Below are positions 362 to 7,429 of a stretch of 7,640 nt of DNA, piece after piece; the first letter of the stretch is position 1, and each line of letters opens with the position of its first letter. The DNA is from Thiotrichaceae bacterium (GTDB taxonomy: Bacteria > Pseudomonadota > Gammaproteobacteria > SZUA-229): assembly GCA_002746365.1 (NCBI GenBank), contig NVWZ01000001.1:81663-89302 (forward strand). Reading direction: 5' to 3'. Under the pieces are notes generated by a model, which made no database searches, was not told where the DNA came from, and was given only the letters and a program-made list of their open reading frames with translations. A program made the position numbers and the translations under genes.

Positions 362-979
362 TCAGAGCCCATGCTCCTTACCCTTACCATGTCGCCTTAC
401 CTCAGGCACACCCTCTGTCATTCGAATAACGGTGGTCGGCTCAATACCACAATGCCCGCCATCAATAATCAGATCCACATGTTTTTCCAGTTGTGCGCGA
501 ATATCCTCAGCATCGGTGACGGGAAATGCTTCACCAGGCATAATGAGCGTACAACTCATTAATGGCTGCCCCAATTCTTTCAACAAAGCATTCACTACCG
601 GATGCTCCATCACCCGCAAACCAATATGACGACGCCTGGCATGCATCAAACGACGCGGCACCTCGCTGGTTCCGGGCAGAATAAAAGTATAAGGCCCCGG
701 TGTTAAAGATTTAAGTAAACGATAATCCGCATTTTCAATCTTTGCATAAATCGCAATTTCAGATAGATCGCGACACACCAATGTCAGATTATGTTTGTCA
801 TCAATCTGTCGAATTCGGCGTAACCGGGTCACGGCATTTTTATCGCCAATATGACACCCCAGCGCATAACTGGAATCGGTTGGATAAACGATGACCCCGC
901 CCTTATGAATAATCTCTACCGCCTGTTTGATGAGACGCTTCTGAGGGTTGTCTGGATGAATTTCAAAATATTGTGACAT
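362..979 (-). CDS. yciO: YciO family protein (Sua5/YciO/YrdC fold)
   Basis: The 205-residue protein matches E. coli YciO (about 206 aa) from its first residues (MSQxFxIHPDNPQxRLIxQA) onward. It carries the family's nucleotide-binding fold: VYPTDSSYALGC at 31-42, TPGPYTFIL at 93-101, EVPRRL at 106-111, GLRV at 120-123, and DGG...PTTVI at 173-185. The fold is that of the threonylcarbamoyl-AMP synthases that start t6A tRNA modification. YciO proteins are not equivalent to TsaC/YrdC, and their cellular job is unsettled. The protein should be cytoplasmic. No Shine-Dalgarno sequence precedes the ATG, and a promoter is placed so that the transcript may begin at or next to the start codon. The gene is flanked on both sides by copies of one palindromic repeat. 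It probably reads toward the M50 gene, although the long repeat-filled gap makes co-transcription uncertain. Confidence 0.95.
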   Translation of the reverse strand: MSQYFEIHPDNPQKRLIKQAVEIIHKGGVIVYPTDSSYALGCHIGDKNAVTRLRRIRQIDDKHNLTLVCRDLSEIAIYAKIENADYRLLKSLTPGPYTFILPGTSEVPRRLMHARRRHIGLRVMEHPVVNALLKELGQPLMSCTLIMPGEAFPVTDAEDIRAQLEKHVDLIIDGGHCGIEPTTVIRMTEGVPEVRRHGKGKEHGL

Positions 980-1438: not shown

Positions 1439-1741
1439 ATGTTGTACGCCATCATTGCACAAGATGTTGAGAACAGCCTCAAAGATCGCCTGGCAGCACG
1501 CGCCAAACATCTGCAACGTTTAACCGCTCTGCAAGAACGTGGGCGTTTAATATTAGCCGGCCCACACCCTGCCGTCGACAGTGAAGACCCCGGAGAAAAT
1601 GGATTTAGTGGCAGTTTAATCGTCGCCGAATTTGAAAGCCTGGAACAAGCAAAAGCCTGGGCTGATGCCGATCCCTATGTAGCAGCGGGTGTATACGCCA
1701 AGGTCACCGTCAAACCTTTTAAGAAAGTTTTTCCGAATTAG
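1439..1741 (+). CDS. yciI: YciI family protein
   Basis: The 100-residue protein aligns over its whole length with E. coli YciI (about 98 aa). It shares MLYxIxAQD at the start, AGPxPAVDSxDPG around 40-52, [32 protein letters not shown] at about 55-86, and a VKPFKKVF tail. It is a small ferredoxin-like alpha/beta protein of the YCII domain family. The conserved His (H24) and Asp residues (D9, D47, D78) are the sort thought to form a putative active site. No reaction is established for this branch. GGAG at 1424-1427 lies 11 bases before the ATG. In many gammaproteobacteria yciI sits with yciB and a BolA-type gene; neither is present here, and tRNA-Leu follows after 54 bases. Base composition is more balanced than in the block beyond the tRNA. 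Confidence 0.95.
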
Positions 1742-1795: not shown

Positions 1796-1882
1796 GCCGG
1801 GGTGGTGAAACTGGTAGACACGCCGGATTCAAAATCCGGTTCCTTCACGGGAGTGCCGGTTCGATTCCGGCCCTCGGTACCA
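1796..1882 (+). tRNA. tRNA-Leu, anticodon CAA
   Basis: The 87-base class II tRNA has acceptor strands GCCGGGG / CCTCGGT, with G-T wobbles at the first and fifth pairs. The D-arm contains GGTAGACAC. The anticodon stem CCGGA/TCCGG (1823-1827 and 1835-1839) encloses TTCAAAA with anticodon CAA at 1830-1832. A long variable arm follows, then the T-arm GCCGG-TTCGATT-CCGGC, and an encoded ACCA at 1879-1882. The class II variable arm and the anticodon identify leucine, reading UUG. No clear terminator follows. tRNA-Leu genes are common insertion sites for genomic islands, and the composition changes directly downstream. Confidence 0.97.
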
Positions 1883-2110
1883 TATATTTCAATTAGTTAC
1901 GATCACCTCTTCCAATCAGCGCGTTTCCAATACTTTCCATGTAGACACCGTAACGCTCGATTTACCGTGACACGGTTTAGTTTAAAATTCTATTTTTTCA
2001 TGAAAACACCAGTGTGAATCCGATTCTTGCACCATATACTTCCGATAAAGTAAAAAAAATTTCTAGTTATACATTTCCAATATTTCTTACGTAGACACAA
2101 TGCAGGAGAT
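1879..2110 (+). repeat. Degenerate direct repeats after the tRNA, possible tRNA-derived or att scar
   Basis: Two blocks recur about 150 bases apart. ACCATATATTTC at 1879-1890 (the tRNA CCA end plus flank) recurs as ACCATATACTTC at 2031-2042. The 25-base block at 1924-1948 (TTTCCAATAC...GTAGACAC) recurs at 2074-2098 with 20 of 25 matches. GTAGACAC is also an exact 8-mer of the tRNA D-arm (1814-1821). GAATCCGATTC before the second ACCATATA resembles a worn T-arm. The 355-base spacer 1883-2237 holds no gene, and no strong promoter for the next operon was found in it. Confidence 0.45.
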
Positions 2111-2227: not shown

Positions 2228-2233
2228 AGGAGA
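2228..2233 (+). promoter_or_regulatory. Shine-Dalgarno site of the dGTPase-like gene
   Basis: AGGAGA lies four bases before the ATG at 2238. This fixes the start and contrasts with the weak or absent sites of yciO and of the second gene of the operon. Confidence 0.8.
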
Positions 2234-2237
2234 AAGC

Positions 2238-3626
2238 ATGCTCACTTGGGACAAGCTGCTAAATCAAGTTAGACGTAAAACACTACACAAATCTAAGGAA
2301 ACAATGGGTACCGGCATAGGCAGGACGGAGTTTGAACGAGACTACGACCGCATATTATTTGCCGCACCCACGCGCAGGCTTGCAGATAAAACCCAAGTTT
2401 TCCCCATGGAAGAAAATGATTCAGTAAGAAATAGACTGACTCATTCTCATGAGGTTAGCAATCTAGCAAGAAGCATTGGTGTACGCTTGGCTTTTGAGCA
2501 TGCCGAAGAAGTTTTTGGGCCAGATCATGAGTTACTTCAAGTAAAAAGGAATGTACCCTCGTTATTAGCTGCTGTAGGACTAGCTCATGATTTAGGGAAC
2601 CCGCCCTTTGGCCACCAAGGGGAAGTTGCAATTCAACAATGGTTTTCCGAACATGAATTTCCTGACAATAAAAATAATATTGATTCAGACTTTCTTAAAT
2701 TTGACGGTAATGCGCAAACTTTTAGATTACTAACTCGTCTGCAAGTACTAAATGATCAATTTGGACTAAATCTTACAGTTGGAACACTTGCCGGATTAAT
2801 TAAATACCCAAGTATTTATGGAACAGAAAACAAAAGCGGCTACAAGAAACATGGGATTTTTAAAAGTGAAGAAGAAATAATCAAAGAAGTTTGGGAGCAA
2901 ACGGGCCTTAAAGAAGGCTTGAGACACCCACTGGCATATATAATGGAAGCCTGTGATGACATAGCTTATTCAATTATCGACGCTGAAGATACTGTCAAAA
3001 AAGGTTACGCATCTTTTTATGATCTAATGGACTTCCTAGATTCATTTGATAAGAGTGATAAAATTATTCAAGAAGTTATTAAAGACGTAAGAGAAGAAAA
3101 TGAAAAATTCAAAAAAGCATCACTTAGCTCTCGTGAATTAAATGACATCTCTATGCAAATGTTTCGAGTGAAAGCGATTTCAGAAATGATACAAGCTGCA
3201 ACAAACGTTTTTGTAAAAAATATAGATAAGATCATGGATTGCTCTATAGAGCCTGGATTCGAACTAATAGAAAATTCAGAATGCGCACAGCTGTGTAAAG
3301 CAGCCAAGAAGTTTGATCTCCGCTATGGTTTTCTACATAAGGACGTATTAAAACTTGAATTACAAGGCAATAACTACATAAAAAAGACGATGACCATGCT
3401 ATGGAAAGGAATATCCAAAGATGGCCACCATAAGGATCATCCATTTGAGCGGTACGCCTTTGGAGAAATTTCTGAAAATTACCAAAGAGTTTATAATGAT
3501 ACAACGAAATCTGATTATGCAAAACACCAATTGCTATGTGATGCAATATCGGGAATGACTGAATCTTATTTAATTAAGAAACATGACGAATTAAAATGTC
3601 TTGAATCAAAAAAATGCAAAAAATGA
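2238..3626 (+). CDS. dGTPase-like HD-domain triphosphohydrolase
   Basis: The 462-residue protein has the marks of the dGTP triphosphohydrolase (Dgt) family. The N-terminal block FERDYDRILFAAPTRRLADK (32-51), followed by TQVFP, precedes RLTHSHEV with the first metal His (H69). HDLGNPPFGHQGE (117-129) gives the HD pair H117/D118 and H126. FDGNAQTFRLL (155-165) is the family's (E/D)GNAQ signature. YIMEACDDIAYSIIDAED (234-251) supplies the distal metal Asp (D241). Family enzymes split dGTP or other dNTPs into nucleoside and triphosphate in the cytoplasm; bacterial dGTPases have been shown to restrict phage by draining dNTPs. Length is near Dgt (about 505 aa). The lysine-rich C-terminus (about 300-462) is less conserved to my eye. 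The gene is AT-rich compared with yciO and yciI, and its stop overlaps the next gene. Substrate preference cannot be read from sequence. Confidence 0.9.
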   Translation: MLTWDKLLNQVRRKTLHKSKETMGTGIGRTEFERDYDRILFAAPTRRLADKTQVFPMEENDSVRNRLTHSHEVSNLARSIGVRLAFEHAEEVFGPDHELLQVKRNVPSLLAAVGLAHDLGNPPFGHQGEVAIQQWFSEHEFPDNKNNIDSDFLKFDGNAQTFRLLTRLQVLNDQFGLNLTVGTLAGLIKYPSIYGTENKSGYKKHGIFKSEEEIIKEVWEQTGLKEGLRHPLAYIMEACDDIAYSIIDAEDTVKKGYASFYDLMDFLDSFDKSDKIIQEVIKDVREENEKFKKASLSSRELNDISMQMFRVKAISEMIQAATNVFVKNIDKIMDCSIEPGFELIENSECAQLCKAAKKFDLRYGFLHKDVLKLELQGNNYIKKTMTMLWKGISKDGHHKDHPFERYAFGEISENYQRVYNDTTKSDYAKHQLLCDAISGMTESYLIKKHDELKCLESKKCKK

Positions 3627-4513
3627 TATTCCCTAAACCATTACCTATAGAATCTATCGGCAATCTAAGAGACCGAGTAGAAAGGCTACTTAAAAAACCG
3701 GTCAAAAGCTTACATGAGCCAAATCAGTTATCGTTTGACATGCCGCTTATTGATAATAAAAACATTAGCAACATAAACCATCCAAGTAAAAACATAGCAG
3801 AGTTTTTAAACTTCATCACTGACGCCATGCCAGATGGAGATGTATATTTATTTGGAGGCATTCTACGCGACATGGCACTATTAGGTAGAAGAGGTTTCAA
3901 CTCTGACATCGACTTAGTTGTAGACGGAAACTGGTCTAATTTTGTTAATTATCTAGAATTCTTAAATGCCCACAAAAATAAATTCGGCGGCTATAGGCTC
4001 ATGGTTGGAGAGTGGCCAGTAGACATCTGGAATGCCAGAGAAACTTGGGCCATCAAAAAGGGGCTTGTAGAATATAAAGGCATAGCTTCTCTAACAGAAA
4101 CAACTGTTTTAAATTGGGATGCAATACTAATGAATTGGAGAACTCGAAACTTCATTTATCGCAAAAACTACATCGATGACATAAATTCGATGTCACTGGA
4201 TATAGTACTAGAAAAAAACCCGAACCCATTAGGAATGGCAATTAGAGTTTTCAGGCACTTATGCTTAAAAAATGCAAAAAAAATAACACCATCAGCAGCG
4301 AATTATCTTGCTAAATGTGCAAAAAAATACACCTATGAGGAGATTAGAAAAGGAGAAATAAGTAGTTACGGAAACAATGTAATTCACACTGCAATATATA
4401 GCTTCTTTAAACATATTAATACTTCAGATGATCAAAACATTAAGCACCAATTTAATATTGCAAGCAACCTAGTAAAAAGAGAGCTTGATCTAAATAATCA
4501 CCTACTAGGATAG
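3614..4513 (+). CDS. CCA/poly(A)-polymerase-like nucleotidyltransferase
   Basis: The 299-residue protein shows the polymerase-beta nucleotidyltransferase core. FGGILRDMALLGR (80-92) matches the GGxxRDxxLGR motif of the poly(A)-polymerase/CCA-adding head domain. SDIDLVV (97-103) gives the catalytic Asp pair D98/D100. WPVDIW (134-139) offers the third carboxylate, D137. A TVLNWDAILMNW block (164-175) and NPLGMAIRVFRHL (204-216) recall the downstream neck region of those enzymes. No anticodon/tRNA-binding or HD extension is evident, so it is shorter than a true CCA-adding enzyme (about 370-410 aa). The substrate is unknown. It begins inside the dGTPase gene: ATG at 3614 gives a 13-base overlap, while an in-frame ATG at 3623 (codon 4) forms an ATGA overlap with the upstream stop and may be the real start. 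No Shine-Dalgarno is seen, so translation is probably coupled. The first 60 residues have no recognised domain. Confidence 0.8.
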   Translation: MQKMIFPKPLPIESIGNLRDRVERLLKKPVKSLHEPNQLSFDMPLIDNKNISNINHPSKNIAEFLNFITDAMPDGDVYLFGGILRDMALLGRRGFNSDIDLVVDGNWSNFVNYLEFLNAHKNKFGGYRLMVGEWPVDIWNARETWAIKKGLVEYKGIASLTETTVLNWDAILMNWRTRNFIYRKNYIDDINSMSLDIVLEKNPNPLGMAIRVFRHLCLKNAKKITPSAANYLAKCAKKYTYEEIRKGEISSYGNNVIHTAIYSFFKHINTSDDQNIKHQFNIASNLVKRELDLNNHLLG

Positions 4514-4527
4514 CATTAATGCTAAAC

Positions 4528-4577
4528 AAAAAAGATCTACTGCAACCACATTTTTAATTAATGCGATCACAGTAGAA
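4528..4577 (-). terminator. Rho-independent terminator of the AIPR gene
   Basis: In the 68-base gap between the convergent genes the minus strand reads TCTACTG ... CGCATT-loop-AATGTG ... CAGTAGA followed by TC and six T (4533-4528). A 7-bp outer and a 6-bp inner stem are separated by a small internal loop. The plus-strand side lacks a T run, so it serves the minus-strand gene better than the operon that converges on it. Confidence 0.55.
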
Positions 4578-4581
4578 TTTA

Positions 4582-5952
4582 TTACATTGCCCTTTTCATA
4601 TTAGCAATTTCTATAGCTTGCATGGACATTACCACAGAATGAATAACTGCTTTGTATGCACCAGCATTTTTACCTAACGATTGAGGATTGTACTCATTTG
4701 ATTTAATCATATCAACAACCACAGACACCATTTCGTTAATATTATCTTCAATAAATTCCAACGGCTCCACTTTCCATGCTAGTTCACCGCCTTTAATTTC
4801 CATAATTTGCGTAAGCCCGCAGATAACAGGAATAATAAAACCATCTGGGTACTTATAATACATTTCATATTCATGATATTTCGTATATGGCTGGCGTGAC
4901 AAATAGCTGCCACCTTTCGTTTTACCATCATAATTTCTCACACATGTAATACGACCAAACCCTGACGAATGGAAATTATATGCGTCCGGGAACAAACGAT
5001 AAATCAAGTCATATGCCTCAGGCATTATTTCCATCATTTTTAGCGCACTATGCACCAGTGGGTTGATCAGCTTGATTCTATCGCTAGAATTTTTCTTTTC
5101 ACTGACATCATCATGTTTCATAATTTCATTAAATATCTTGACGCACTGGCCTTTTCCCGAATAGATTGAAACTGGGTTTATTTTTGACACATCGGAAGGT
5201 AGCTTTCCTTCATTTTGAAGAGCCATCATAGGTATCATTGAAAGAGCTATTATATCTGCTGCTTTTATTGTTTTACCCGGTTCGTTTGTTTTCCATTCTA
5301 TTTTTTCTTCTACTTCTTCATCTAAGGCATCTGCCAATATACGATAGTAGCCCGAGTGATTACCTCTAGCCGTTTCTGTTAACTCTGCATTATTATTTCT
5401 TGCTGAAGATATTTCTAGTATATGCTCAACAAAATCACCTTCATTATTTTTTGCTGGAAAAATAATTTCAATTGGGATATAAAAATCATCTAAATCTGAT
5501 GAACTCTCTACATACTTTCGAATATCATCTTTGACTTCATCCCACTTATCTTTTACCTCTTCCCATGTCTTTGCTTTAATATTTTCTTTATCAATCACAC
5601 ATGATATTAAATGAGATGCGATGGCTAAAGTATTATGACCACCATCAACTATTCCTTCTAATTCTGGCTCAATAAAATTCAAGCGGTATCTATTTCTGTC
5701 AAGTGCTTCACATTCACGAGAGGAAACAAGCAGCCCCTTGCTCTTAAACATAAATAGCTCAGGTGAAGTCTCTAACGTCTCTCTTATATCTGCTGTAACT
5801 TTGCTTGACTTAGCTAAACGCGGATTTGCATTCAGGTCAGCATTATCAATAAGATTACACATTCCTTTAGCATCTAATAAGCCAATAATTTTATTTAATG
5901 ACTTACGTTCTTGGGTATGACAATCGTGGATTTTTACAATCGTTTTTTTCAC
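4582..5952 (-). CDS. AIPR family protein (abortive infection phage resistance)
   Basis: Read from GTG at 5952 the protein has 456 residues. NPRLAKSSKVTADIRETLET (43-62), then SPELFMFKSKGLLVSS (63-78), follow the AIPR pattern 'NpR...n..I..TL...p..F...NNGi', with KSKG in place of the usual NNG. IVDGGHNTLAIA (101-112) matches the next AIPR block (I-NGGQT-like, reminiscent of the DGQHR motif), and ISSARNNNAELT (181-192) follows. AIPR proteins occur in phage-resistance loci, sometimes with restriction-modification genes; their mechanism is not settled. No signal peptide or membrane segment is seen. An upstream ATG at 6033 would add 27 residues, but GTG has GGAG at 5963-5960 seven bases away, so I prefer it. 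The gene is AT-rich, converges on the dGTPase operon and ends at a terminator-like hairpin. Confidence 0.75.
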   Translation of the reverse strand: MKKTIVKIHDCHTQERKSLNKIIGLLDAKGMCNLIDNADLNANPRLAKSSKVTADIRETLETSPELFMFKSKGLLVSSRECEALDRNRYRLNFIEPELEGIVDGGHNTLAIASHLISCVIDKENIKAKTWEEVKDKWDEVKDDIRKYVESSSDLDDFYIPIEIIFPAKNNEGDFVEHILEISSARNNNAELTETARGNHSGYYRILADALDEEVEEKIEWKTNEPGKTIKAADIIALSMIPMMALQNEGKLPSDVSKINPVSIYSGKGQCVKIFNEIMKHDDVSEKKNSSDRIKLINPLVHSALKMMEIMPEAYDLIYRLFPDAYNFHSSGFGRITCVRNYDGKTKGGSYLSRQPYTKYHEYEMYYKYPDGFIIPVICGLTQIMEIKGGELAWKVEPLEFIEDNINEMVSVVVDMIKSNEYNPQSLGKNAGAYKAVIHSVVMSMQAIEIANMKRAM

Positions 5953-5958
5953 TTGGAT

Positions 5959-5986
5959 TCTCCAATTAATGTTTTCAAATTGGAGA
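5959..5986 (-). promoter_or_regulatory. RBS-sequestering hairpin of the AIPR gene
   Basis: On the minus strand TCTCCAATT (5986-5978) and AATTGGAGA (5967-5959) are exact complements around a 10-base loop. The second arm contains the GGAG ribosome site of the GTG start. A folded leader would hide it, suggesting translational control. Alternatively it is an operator for a dimeric repressor. No convincing -35/-10 pair was found upstream; TACTAT at 5998-5993 is a lone -10-like box. Confidence 0.5.
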
Positions 5987-6285
5987 CTTGGAATAGTATT
6001 ACTTGAACGCAAACAAAAGAGGCGACCTATCACAGGTCATATGTTTGCCATTAACTACCAAGCCTCATCTCTTCGGCGTTGCCGTGCTCTTTCCAGAGCG
6101 GTTTAAAACAGCCTTATCACAAGGCTTACTAGACTCTAACACCCACTTAAAAGCTAAGTCAAGAAAAAATACCATTGACGGATTACAGCCTCCACAAACT
6201 CAATACTAAGAATTGTCAATTTTCCCCGATATTCAATAAGTTTTTTAATACAACTAATTTCCGTACAGTTATTGACAGAACTCCA
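5987..6285. other. Gene-free stretch upstream of the AIPR gene
   Basis: I see no convincing gene in this stretch. A 68-codon plus-strand reading frame at 6003-6209 lacks a ribosome site and recognisable domains. Small inverted repeats are GACCT-ATCAC-AGGTC at 6024-6038 and GCCTT...AAGGC at about 6110-6124. The middle part (about 6060-6200) is less AT-rich than the genes beside it, so it may be a remnant from elsewhere. Confidence 0.4.
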
Positions 6286-6423: not shown

Positions 6424-6672
6424 TTACAAATCCAACAATTCATGTGGTTTCAGCTTAAATGCTTTCGCTATCTTAAATAAATTGGATAAAGTCATATTTA
6501 TTGTCTCACCACTTTCAATCCGTTTAAATTGACGATAAGACAATTCAAACTTTTCCATTTCCTCCTGTGTAAAACCTTTTTCTTTACGTAATTCATAAAT
6601 TCTTTTTTTAAGTTTTTTGGTGAAACGCTGAAACTCATTATGATACGCACTATCTGAACCAATTCCTCTCAC
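6424..6672 (-). CDS. Small XRE-family helix-turn-helix regulator
   Basis: The 82-residue protein is almost entirely a Cro/C1-type DNA-binding domain. LKKRIYELRKEKGFTQEEME (21-40) is the first two helices, SYRQFKRIESGETINMTLSN (45-64) covers the recognition helix and turn, and LFKIAKAFKLKPHELLDL (65-82) is the closing helix with the usual 'P.ELL' end. The short N-terminus has no partner domain. The start is GTG at 6672, with AAGAGGGA (6687-6680) eight bases upstream, a good ribosome site. It is divergent from the small gene at 6783, and an inverted repeat between them may be its operator. It could be the repressor half of a small regulatory or toxin-antitoxin-like pair, or a leftover phage or island regulator. 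Confidence 0.85.
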   Translation of the reverse strand: MRGIGSDSAYHNEFQRFTKKLKKRIYELRKEKGFTQEEMEKFELSYRQFKRIESGETINMTLSNLFKIAKAFKLKPHELLDL

Positions 6673-6782: not shown

Positions 6783-7031
6783 ATGAATAAGGACACCTGC
6801 GTACCCCCCTCCCCTTTAATTGCTGAAGATTCAGGCAATAATGTCGGCCACCAAGACACTCTGAATAGAATCGAAGACATACTACAGTTACTTACTGAAC
6901 TAGATTTATCTGAGGAGTGGTCAGCCAAAGCTAAAACGGGCCATTACTGGATTTTGTTAGTACTAATTGATTCAATAAGGTATGTAAGCGATGCACTTGC
7001 CAGTGAAGCAGATGATAAATTAAAGGGGTAG
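6783..7031 (+). CDS. Small hypothetical protein, family not recognised
   Basis: The 82-residue protein has no signal peptide. A polar, proline-containing N-terminus (about 1-24) leads into two likely helices: TLNRIEDILQLLTELDLSEE (26-45), which is leucine-rich and amphipathic, and HYWILLVLIDSIRYVSDALA (54-73). The second is hydrophobic but has internal charges, so it is more likely a packed helix than a membrane span. AAGGA (6768-6772) ten bases before the ATG supports translation. It is divergent from the XRE gene across a putative shared operator, so it may be the gene that regulator controls. I recognise no catalytic motif. After the stop come a 14-bp perfect palindrome and a weak CAGC/GCTG hairpin with a T run at 7070-7090, which might terminate transcription. 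Confidence 0.6.
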   Translation: MNKDTCVPPSPLIAEDSGNNVGHQDTLNRIEDILQLLTELDLSEEWSAKAKTGHYWILLVLIDSIRYVSDALASEADDKLKG

Positions 7032-7049: not shown

Positions 7050-7112
7050 CCACTTACTTAAGCCAGAAACAGCCATAAAAGCTGATTTTTCGTAGATAAC
7101 TAAATATAATTA

Positions 7113-7207
7113 TCTCGCGGAGGCGCAGGGAACGCTGAGAAAAAACACAGGATTTAGAGTCATTAAGACATAAAAAACCTTTGCGTCCTCTGCGCCTCTG
7201 CGAGAGA
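7113..7207. repeat. Interspersed inverted repeat with GC-rich ends
   Basis: The left arm, beginning TCTCGCGGAGGCGCAGGG at 7113, and the right arm, ending GCGCCTCTGCGAGAGA at 7207, are complementary over about 27 bases with five mismatches. They flank a loop of about 40 bases. Elements with GCGCCTCTGCGAGA ends are, from memory, widespread dispersed repeats in proteobacterial genomes. The right end abuts the truncated acetyltransferase fragment. Confidence 0.8.
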
Positions 7208-7429
7208 AACAAGGTTGACGCTGCAGCACAGCTCTGGTTCTTTGTTCAAGGTAAAGCGAGTATCTTCCGGCTGGCGTATGATGAAGAGTGGAAACGTTAC
7301 TCACCGGGTTCAATCCTTACTGCCTATCTTATGAGTAAAAAATCTGTCAAAGGTTATATCGAAAAACTTTCAAATCAAACGGCTACAAAAATCACGCCGC
7401 TGAAAATTCAAAAGAAGGGGCGACGATTA
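7208..7429 (+). pseudogene. Fragment of a GNAT (BioF2/CelD-like) acetyltransferase
   Basis: In the frame starting at 7208, AAAQLWFFVQGKASIFRLAY and the adjoining DEEWKRYSPGSILTAYLM (about 7220-7333) match the C-terminal core of Acetyltransf_6-type N-acyltransferases (pattern AAQxWFxxxGKAxIxKLAYDExxxxxSPGxxLTAxLM). The bulk of the enzyme is absent upstream, where the palindrome at 7113-7207 begins. After LM the reading (SKKSVKGYIEKL...) no longer fits the family, whose usual next block (GDDxYKxxW) I do not find in any frame. The only upstream start is a TTG inside the palindrome. I read it as a decayed fragment left by the insertion or recombination at the repeat. Confidence 0.6.

Follow-up and report, generated by a model that had tools for sequence, protein, structure and literature searches.

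A 7,640-nucleotide stretch of a Thiotrichaceae bacterium genome (assembly GCA_002746365.1, contig NVWZ01000001.1, positions 81,663 to 89,302 of the forward strand; hereafter the window) carries at 2238-4513 a pair of overlapping genes that, judged by homology, is almost certainly a Clover anti-phage operon, in which CloA would hydrolyze dGTP when dTTP rises and CloB, the predicted maker of p3diT, would restrain CloA. The Clover (CloA-CloB) system was reported in 2025 from Salmonella enterica SA20044414 and Escherichia coli H5, the latter one of two systems tested in that paper; as described there, dTTP activates the dGTPase CloA, whereas p3diT, synthesized by CloB, inhibits it (PMC12265719). 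A first-pass annotation of this DNA had proposed that a dGTPase coupled to a Pol-beta nucleotidyltransferase acts as one defense unit, which matches Clover, and had regarded the pairing as undescribed and unnamed, which it is not. The finding was thus real and rightly sensed as defense, yet already explained, because the pair corresponds to the published system. What the window adds is a divergent Clover member whose two allosteric pockets are conserved throughout and, in this genus, a tRNA-Leu/msrB slot that exchanges its cargo.

The genes at issue, with the convergent AIPR-family neighbor that the annotation had counted as part of the module, are as follows.

2228-2233, plus strand: AGGAGA, from its sequence the likely ribosome-binding site of cloA
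2238-3626, plus strand: cloA, 462 amino acids, predicted HD-domain dGTPase effector, assigned by homology to Salmonella CloA (SeCloA) and by the residues kept
3623-4513, plus strand: cloB, Pol-beta/CCA-like nucleotidyltransferase, predicted p3diT synthase (open reading frame (ORF) 3614-4513, 299 amino acids)
4582-5952, minus strand: AIPR-family gene, convergent neighbor (ORF open to 6033, 483 amino acids)

The assignment draws on homology, gene order, gene overlap, and retention of the catalytic residues and of those that bind each of the two ligands, all observed here. By analogy with the Salmonella and E. coli systems, this CloB would make p3diT in a healthy cell and hold CloA inactive; phage infection would raise dTTP, overriding the p3diT inhibition and activating this CloA; and the activated enzyme would deplete dGTP, by which the pair may stop phage. 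Among the roles that the annotation had entertained for the nucleotidyltransferase was that of a sensor or antitoxin, an option that fits the part of a brake that CloB would play by this analogy.

The dGTPase, the nucleotidyltransferase, and their pairing

Pfam recognizes HD and HD_assoc domains in the dGTPase ORF, and its best matches in the PDB are the Clover CloA entries 9p8s-9p8v (E 5e-156 or lower, down to 2e-158), with the next dGTPase relative reaching only 3e-51. These entries are printed as 8P9S-8P9V in PMC12265719, whereas the PDB copy holds them as 9p8s-9p8v, dNTP triphosphohydrolase. Alignment to SeCloA (9p8t) gives 252 identical residues of 457 aligned (55%). The residue numbering of the paper equals the PDB chain number minus two, by which 40 of 41 letters agree; the exception, Q377, is a Glu both in the PDB chain and in the window CloA.

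Residue by residue, the window protein retains all six catalytic positions of the HD motif and HE dyad (H69, H117, D118, D242, H126, E129), all ten of the p3diT pocket (T25, R29, R34, D37, R38, F41, N75, N181, Q311, R314), and all nine of the dTTP pocket (R47, D61, Q172, K256, S418, N420, A444, T449, Y452). Other residues named in the paper match in 7 of 8 cases for dGTP, 5 of 6 for the switch, and 1 of 2 for assembly, where the octamer contact R46 is kept. Across 15 further CloA proteins of Clover loci (those of E. coli H5 and SC467 plus 13 encoded on genome contigs, omitting L008, whose CloA is cut by the contig), 9-10 of the p3diT residues and 7-9 of the dTTP residues are present. The housekeeping dGTPase Dgt of E. 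coli K-12, placed in one alignment with the CloA set, likewise has the catalytic residues (6/6), but keeps 4/10 of the p3diT and 4/9 of the dTTP positions and has no adjoining nucleotidyltransferase; a second control, 2pgs, which is partial and lacks its C-terminal part, scores 6/6, 5/10, and 2/9. As far as such alignments can tell, the two regulatory pockets distinguish Clover CloA from both non-Clover dGTPases compared, and they group the window protein with Clover.

CloB is the more diverged partner. A single comparison with the E. coli H5 protein gives 30% identity over 184 amino acids (E = 1e-28), a profile comparison with HHalign gives 99.8%, and the partner gene of E. coli SC467 is 33% identical over 206 residues. 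The H5 locus was recognized by strain name and gene pair at NZ_CP010169.1 rather than by its IMG number. The active-site motif [D/E]h[D/E] ... h[D/E]h is present as D98-I-D100 and V-D137-I, and its three carboxylates align with D71, D73, and D113 of H5 CloB and are invariant in all 26 sequences of our CloB alignment (A1); in the paper, CloB is inactivated by D71A/D73A, which one legend prints as D61A/D63A (PMC12265719). Pfam yields a sub-threshold NTP_transf_2/PolyA_pol head (PolyA_pol 16.4 against a cut-off of 23). The predicted structure (pLDDT, a model confidence score, of 82.9, with residues 30-54 under 50) lies closest to class II CCA-adding enzymes (Foldseek E 1.4e-7, TM score 0.46 by query length), so that the label "CCA-like" given at first pass was apt. 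While the predicted fold is shared with class II CCA-adding enzymes and poly(A) polymerases, CloB differs from them in being a short protein of a distinct family under the PolyA_pol cut-off. Its start is probably the ATG at 3623 rather than that at 3614, because homologues start at that Met and because the codon forms an ATGA stop/start overlap with the cloA stop (3623-3626); the corresponding residue, M4 of the ORF, is nearly invariant in A1.

Could a diverged CloB make a different nucleotide, with the CloA pocket adapted to it? The low identity to the tested H5 enzyme and an N-terminal insertion common to the clade of the window CloB would allow for such a variant of Clover, but the ten residues that read p3diT are unchanged, including the base-specific Q311, D37, and N75, and a distant Xanthomonas CloB is likewise described as producing p3diT (PMC12265719). 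We consider this variant very improbable, and p3diT remains the predicted product.

The annotation had suggested tabulating how often a dGTPase gene lies directly upstream of homologues of the nucleotidyltransferase. Far from rarely co-occurring, CloA precedes CloB directly in 18/18 distinct loci found through CloB searches. Genome contigs supplied 14 loci; the class sample of 368 other genomes gave three further genomes (one match being L007 again); the phylum sample of 398 genomes gave one new clear match, with the window genome and G398 recurring and four weak matches dropped; and plasmids gave two records of 72,556, one of which was read. Not all of the pairs are intact: CloA is cut by the contig start in L008 and matches in two frames in G111 and G398, and the G398 pair (L067, L072) looks decayed, with two stops inside the CloB match. 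The two reading frames stand about 0.15 kb apart in G447. Of 19 loci examined, among them the window and two from E. coli, 16 have an in-frame start codon for CloB that overlaps the cloA end, and the overlap is thus not peculiar to the window locus. One of these E. coli loci, SC467 (L006:7905-10134), has its Clover-type pair, with the gene name dgt, inserted between flhB and cheZ. In further support of the pairing, CloA and CloB diverge in step: their identities correlate across 18 loci (rho 0.815, reached by 0/2000 permutations).

Comparison with a defense catalogue, also proposed at first pass, gave a match for one gene of the two. PADLOC-DB 2023 labels the first gene "dGTPase" (E 1.3e-75), while the CloB proteins of the window and of E. 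coli H5 both go unmatched; Clover is therefore visible in the 2023 catalogue only as a dGTPase. That label could be taken to mean that the dGTPase is a single-gene anti-phage enzyme and that the nucleotidyltransferase encoded behind it is an unrelated housekeeping protein. One such enzyme is the Shewanella SpdGTPase (PDB 9p8w), which PMC12265719 lists as an anti-phage enzyme and describes as active alone in vitro; it too is an HD dGTPase, but is a distant relative of the window CloA (E 8e-27). Moreover, the NCBIfam antiphage_dGTPase model (NF041026) scores 192.9 bits against a cut-off of 400, every p3diT and dTTP residue is retained, and the CloB partner is present here as it is in all loci found by way of CloB. 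We give the single-gene explanation next to no credence. A cyclic-oligonucleotide-based anti-phage signaling system (CBASS) was also rejected as a candidate: CloB matched neither SMODS nor a PADLOC cyclase model, and no SMODS match was found in the whole genome.

The closest known systems are the Clover pairs of S. enterica SA20044414 and E. coli H5 (PMC12265719), with which the window shares gene order, an HD dGTPase with dTTP and p3diT pockets, and a Pol-beta nucleotidyltransferase with the same three carboxylates; in H5, too, the genes overlap and the island adjoins a tRNA. The window differs in its bacterial lineage and its AIPR neighbor. Several points tell against assigning it to Clover or limit the evidence for it. 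The octamer residue H263, stacked between CloA subunits, is a Tyr (Y261) in the window, and Q427 is an Asp; CloB, at 30% identity to the H5 enzyme, has a longer N-terminal part, and its product is predicted; the Dgt control is about 29% identical, and some of its pocket columns may be misaligned; the correlation of CloA with CloB identities ignores the shared ancestry of the loci; and the same-genus genomes in which CloB was sought and not found (0/17) are 65-99% complete.

The convergent AIPR gene

The gene facing the pair is a member of the AIPR family (PF10592, 38.1 bits against a cut-off of 25). Its start is probably the GTG at 5952, because the database copy P0121 has 456 amino acids and a GGAG lies just upstream. 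The Pfam AIPR model missed a relative in G218 that the protein query detected, and the window gene belongs to a subfamily of its own, which the Pfam model sees weakly.

The first-pass annotation had taken this gene as part of the module, and a three-gene system with AIPR as a further effector or regulator of the pair has some attraction: the gene is convergent, 68 bp from cloB, and in the same island, and AIPR families are tied to phage resistance in the literature consulted. Nevertheless, a profile built from 120 AIPR relatives found the window's own gene alone and matched 0/20 further Clover loci (the 18 found via CloB, E. coli H5, and SC467) with flanks up to 10 kb, although the contigs of L013, L017, and L019 are short and one flank is truncated in L008, L010, and L014. 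More broadly, PF10592 occurs in 4/18 other Clover genomes or records (a search that left out the two E. coli loci), as against 11/368 other genomes of the class sample above cut-off (12/368 at E up to 0.001), in sets unmatched for lineage or size. The higher rate fits defense-rich genomes, and none of the four genes lies in the Clover stretch. Those of L017, L019, and G447 are on contigs other than the Clover one, and in L018 the record coordinates put the gene about 1.7 Mb away; the Clover contigs of L017 (9.8 kb) and L019 (4.5 kb) are too short to exclude AIPR linkage past their ends.

The distribution of the window's own AIPR type runs the same way. Only one other class-sample genome, G218, has it (L065:8185-10873, 45% identity), behind a DprA-like gene and with no CloA or CloB within 17 kb, and the plasmid records with this AIPR (11) and those with CloB (2) do not overlap. 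A three-gene module is accordingly very unlikely, and AIPR is probably not part of Clover; most likely it is an independent gene for abortive infection, housed in the same mobile slot behind tRNA-Leu. One could also imagine a two-tier arrangement, in which AIPR is a second-line effector firing once Clover is breached and the slot is a compact, layered defense island, but we hold this to be a long shot.

The tRNA-Leu/msrB slot and remaining features

The remaining features of the window place the operon and its neighbor in an island behind a tRNA.

362-979, minus strand: Sua5/YrdC-family gene
1439-1741, plus strand: YciI-family gene
1796-1882, plus strand: tRNA-Leu(CAA), left border of the variable slot
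1879-1890 and 2031-2042, plus strand (feature 1879-2042): 12-nt repeat of the tRNA tail junction, one mismatch
6424-6672, minus strand: small Cro/CI-type helix-turn-helix regulator, same island
6783-7031, plus strand: 82-amino-acid ORF
7057-7222, strand not assigned: dispersed repeat near the right end of the island

Farther downstream in the genome lie msrB-like, GGDEF/EAL, glyoxalase-like, and dapC/dapD-like genes, named from a reading of their translations. The layout first described, an overlapping pair with a convergent AIPR gene in a block behind a tRNA, is borne out by the ORFs, the Pfam matches, and the tRNA-Leu(CAA). The block had also been called AT-rich: in 500-base windows its GC fraction is indeed lower, at 0.31-0.42 against 0.38-0.47 before it, but the AT-richness is moderate.

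Sister genomes illustrate how variable this site is. The site is empty in G011, where a single contig has tRNA-Leu and msrB separated by about 150 bp, while other genes fill it in G004 (about 3.5 kb) and G007 (about 5.4 kb). G013 has a copy of the tRNA at the end of two contigs, with different sequence following it, and in the remaining sister contigs retrieved, either a contig end interrupts the slot or no msrB was found behind the tRNA. Matches from sister genomes that cover both yciI and the tRNA end at about 1882-1900; a separate match, G008:C281, reaches 1951. Because it is empty in G011 and differently filled in G004 and G007, the slot is a site of gene turnover, and it may be a defense hotspot. 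The absence of CloB from the 17 same-genus genomes searched, taken with a slot that is empty or differently filled, indicates that cloAB was probably gained horizontally. The 12-nt tail repeat in the window is a possible remnant of integration at the tRNA, short enough to be chance; no integrase was seen among the window ORFs. In G007 the tRNA tail is repeated 174 bp downstream (28/34 bases).

The G007 cargo includes ankyrin genes and, next to cytochrome genes, a SMODS/CD-NTase gene (L055:4771-5757; best PADLOC cyclase model E 3.8e-39); a Pfam scan of five other cargo proteins gave no recognized CBASS effector match.

Within the window, the 82-amino-acid ORF has no Pfam, NCBIfam, or PHROGs match, and a short match to an Acetyltransf_6 (GNAT) domain fragment at 7181-7330 is probably a gene remnant. 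The dispersed repeat contains a 26-nt inverted repeat (85% complementary) and has three further copies in this genome at 91-92% identity, with shorter matches in the same genome and genus. In the flank before yciI, a perfect 23-nt inverted repeat with a 6-nt loop occupies 1053-1104, and one of its arms is copied at 210-232 (91%).
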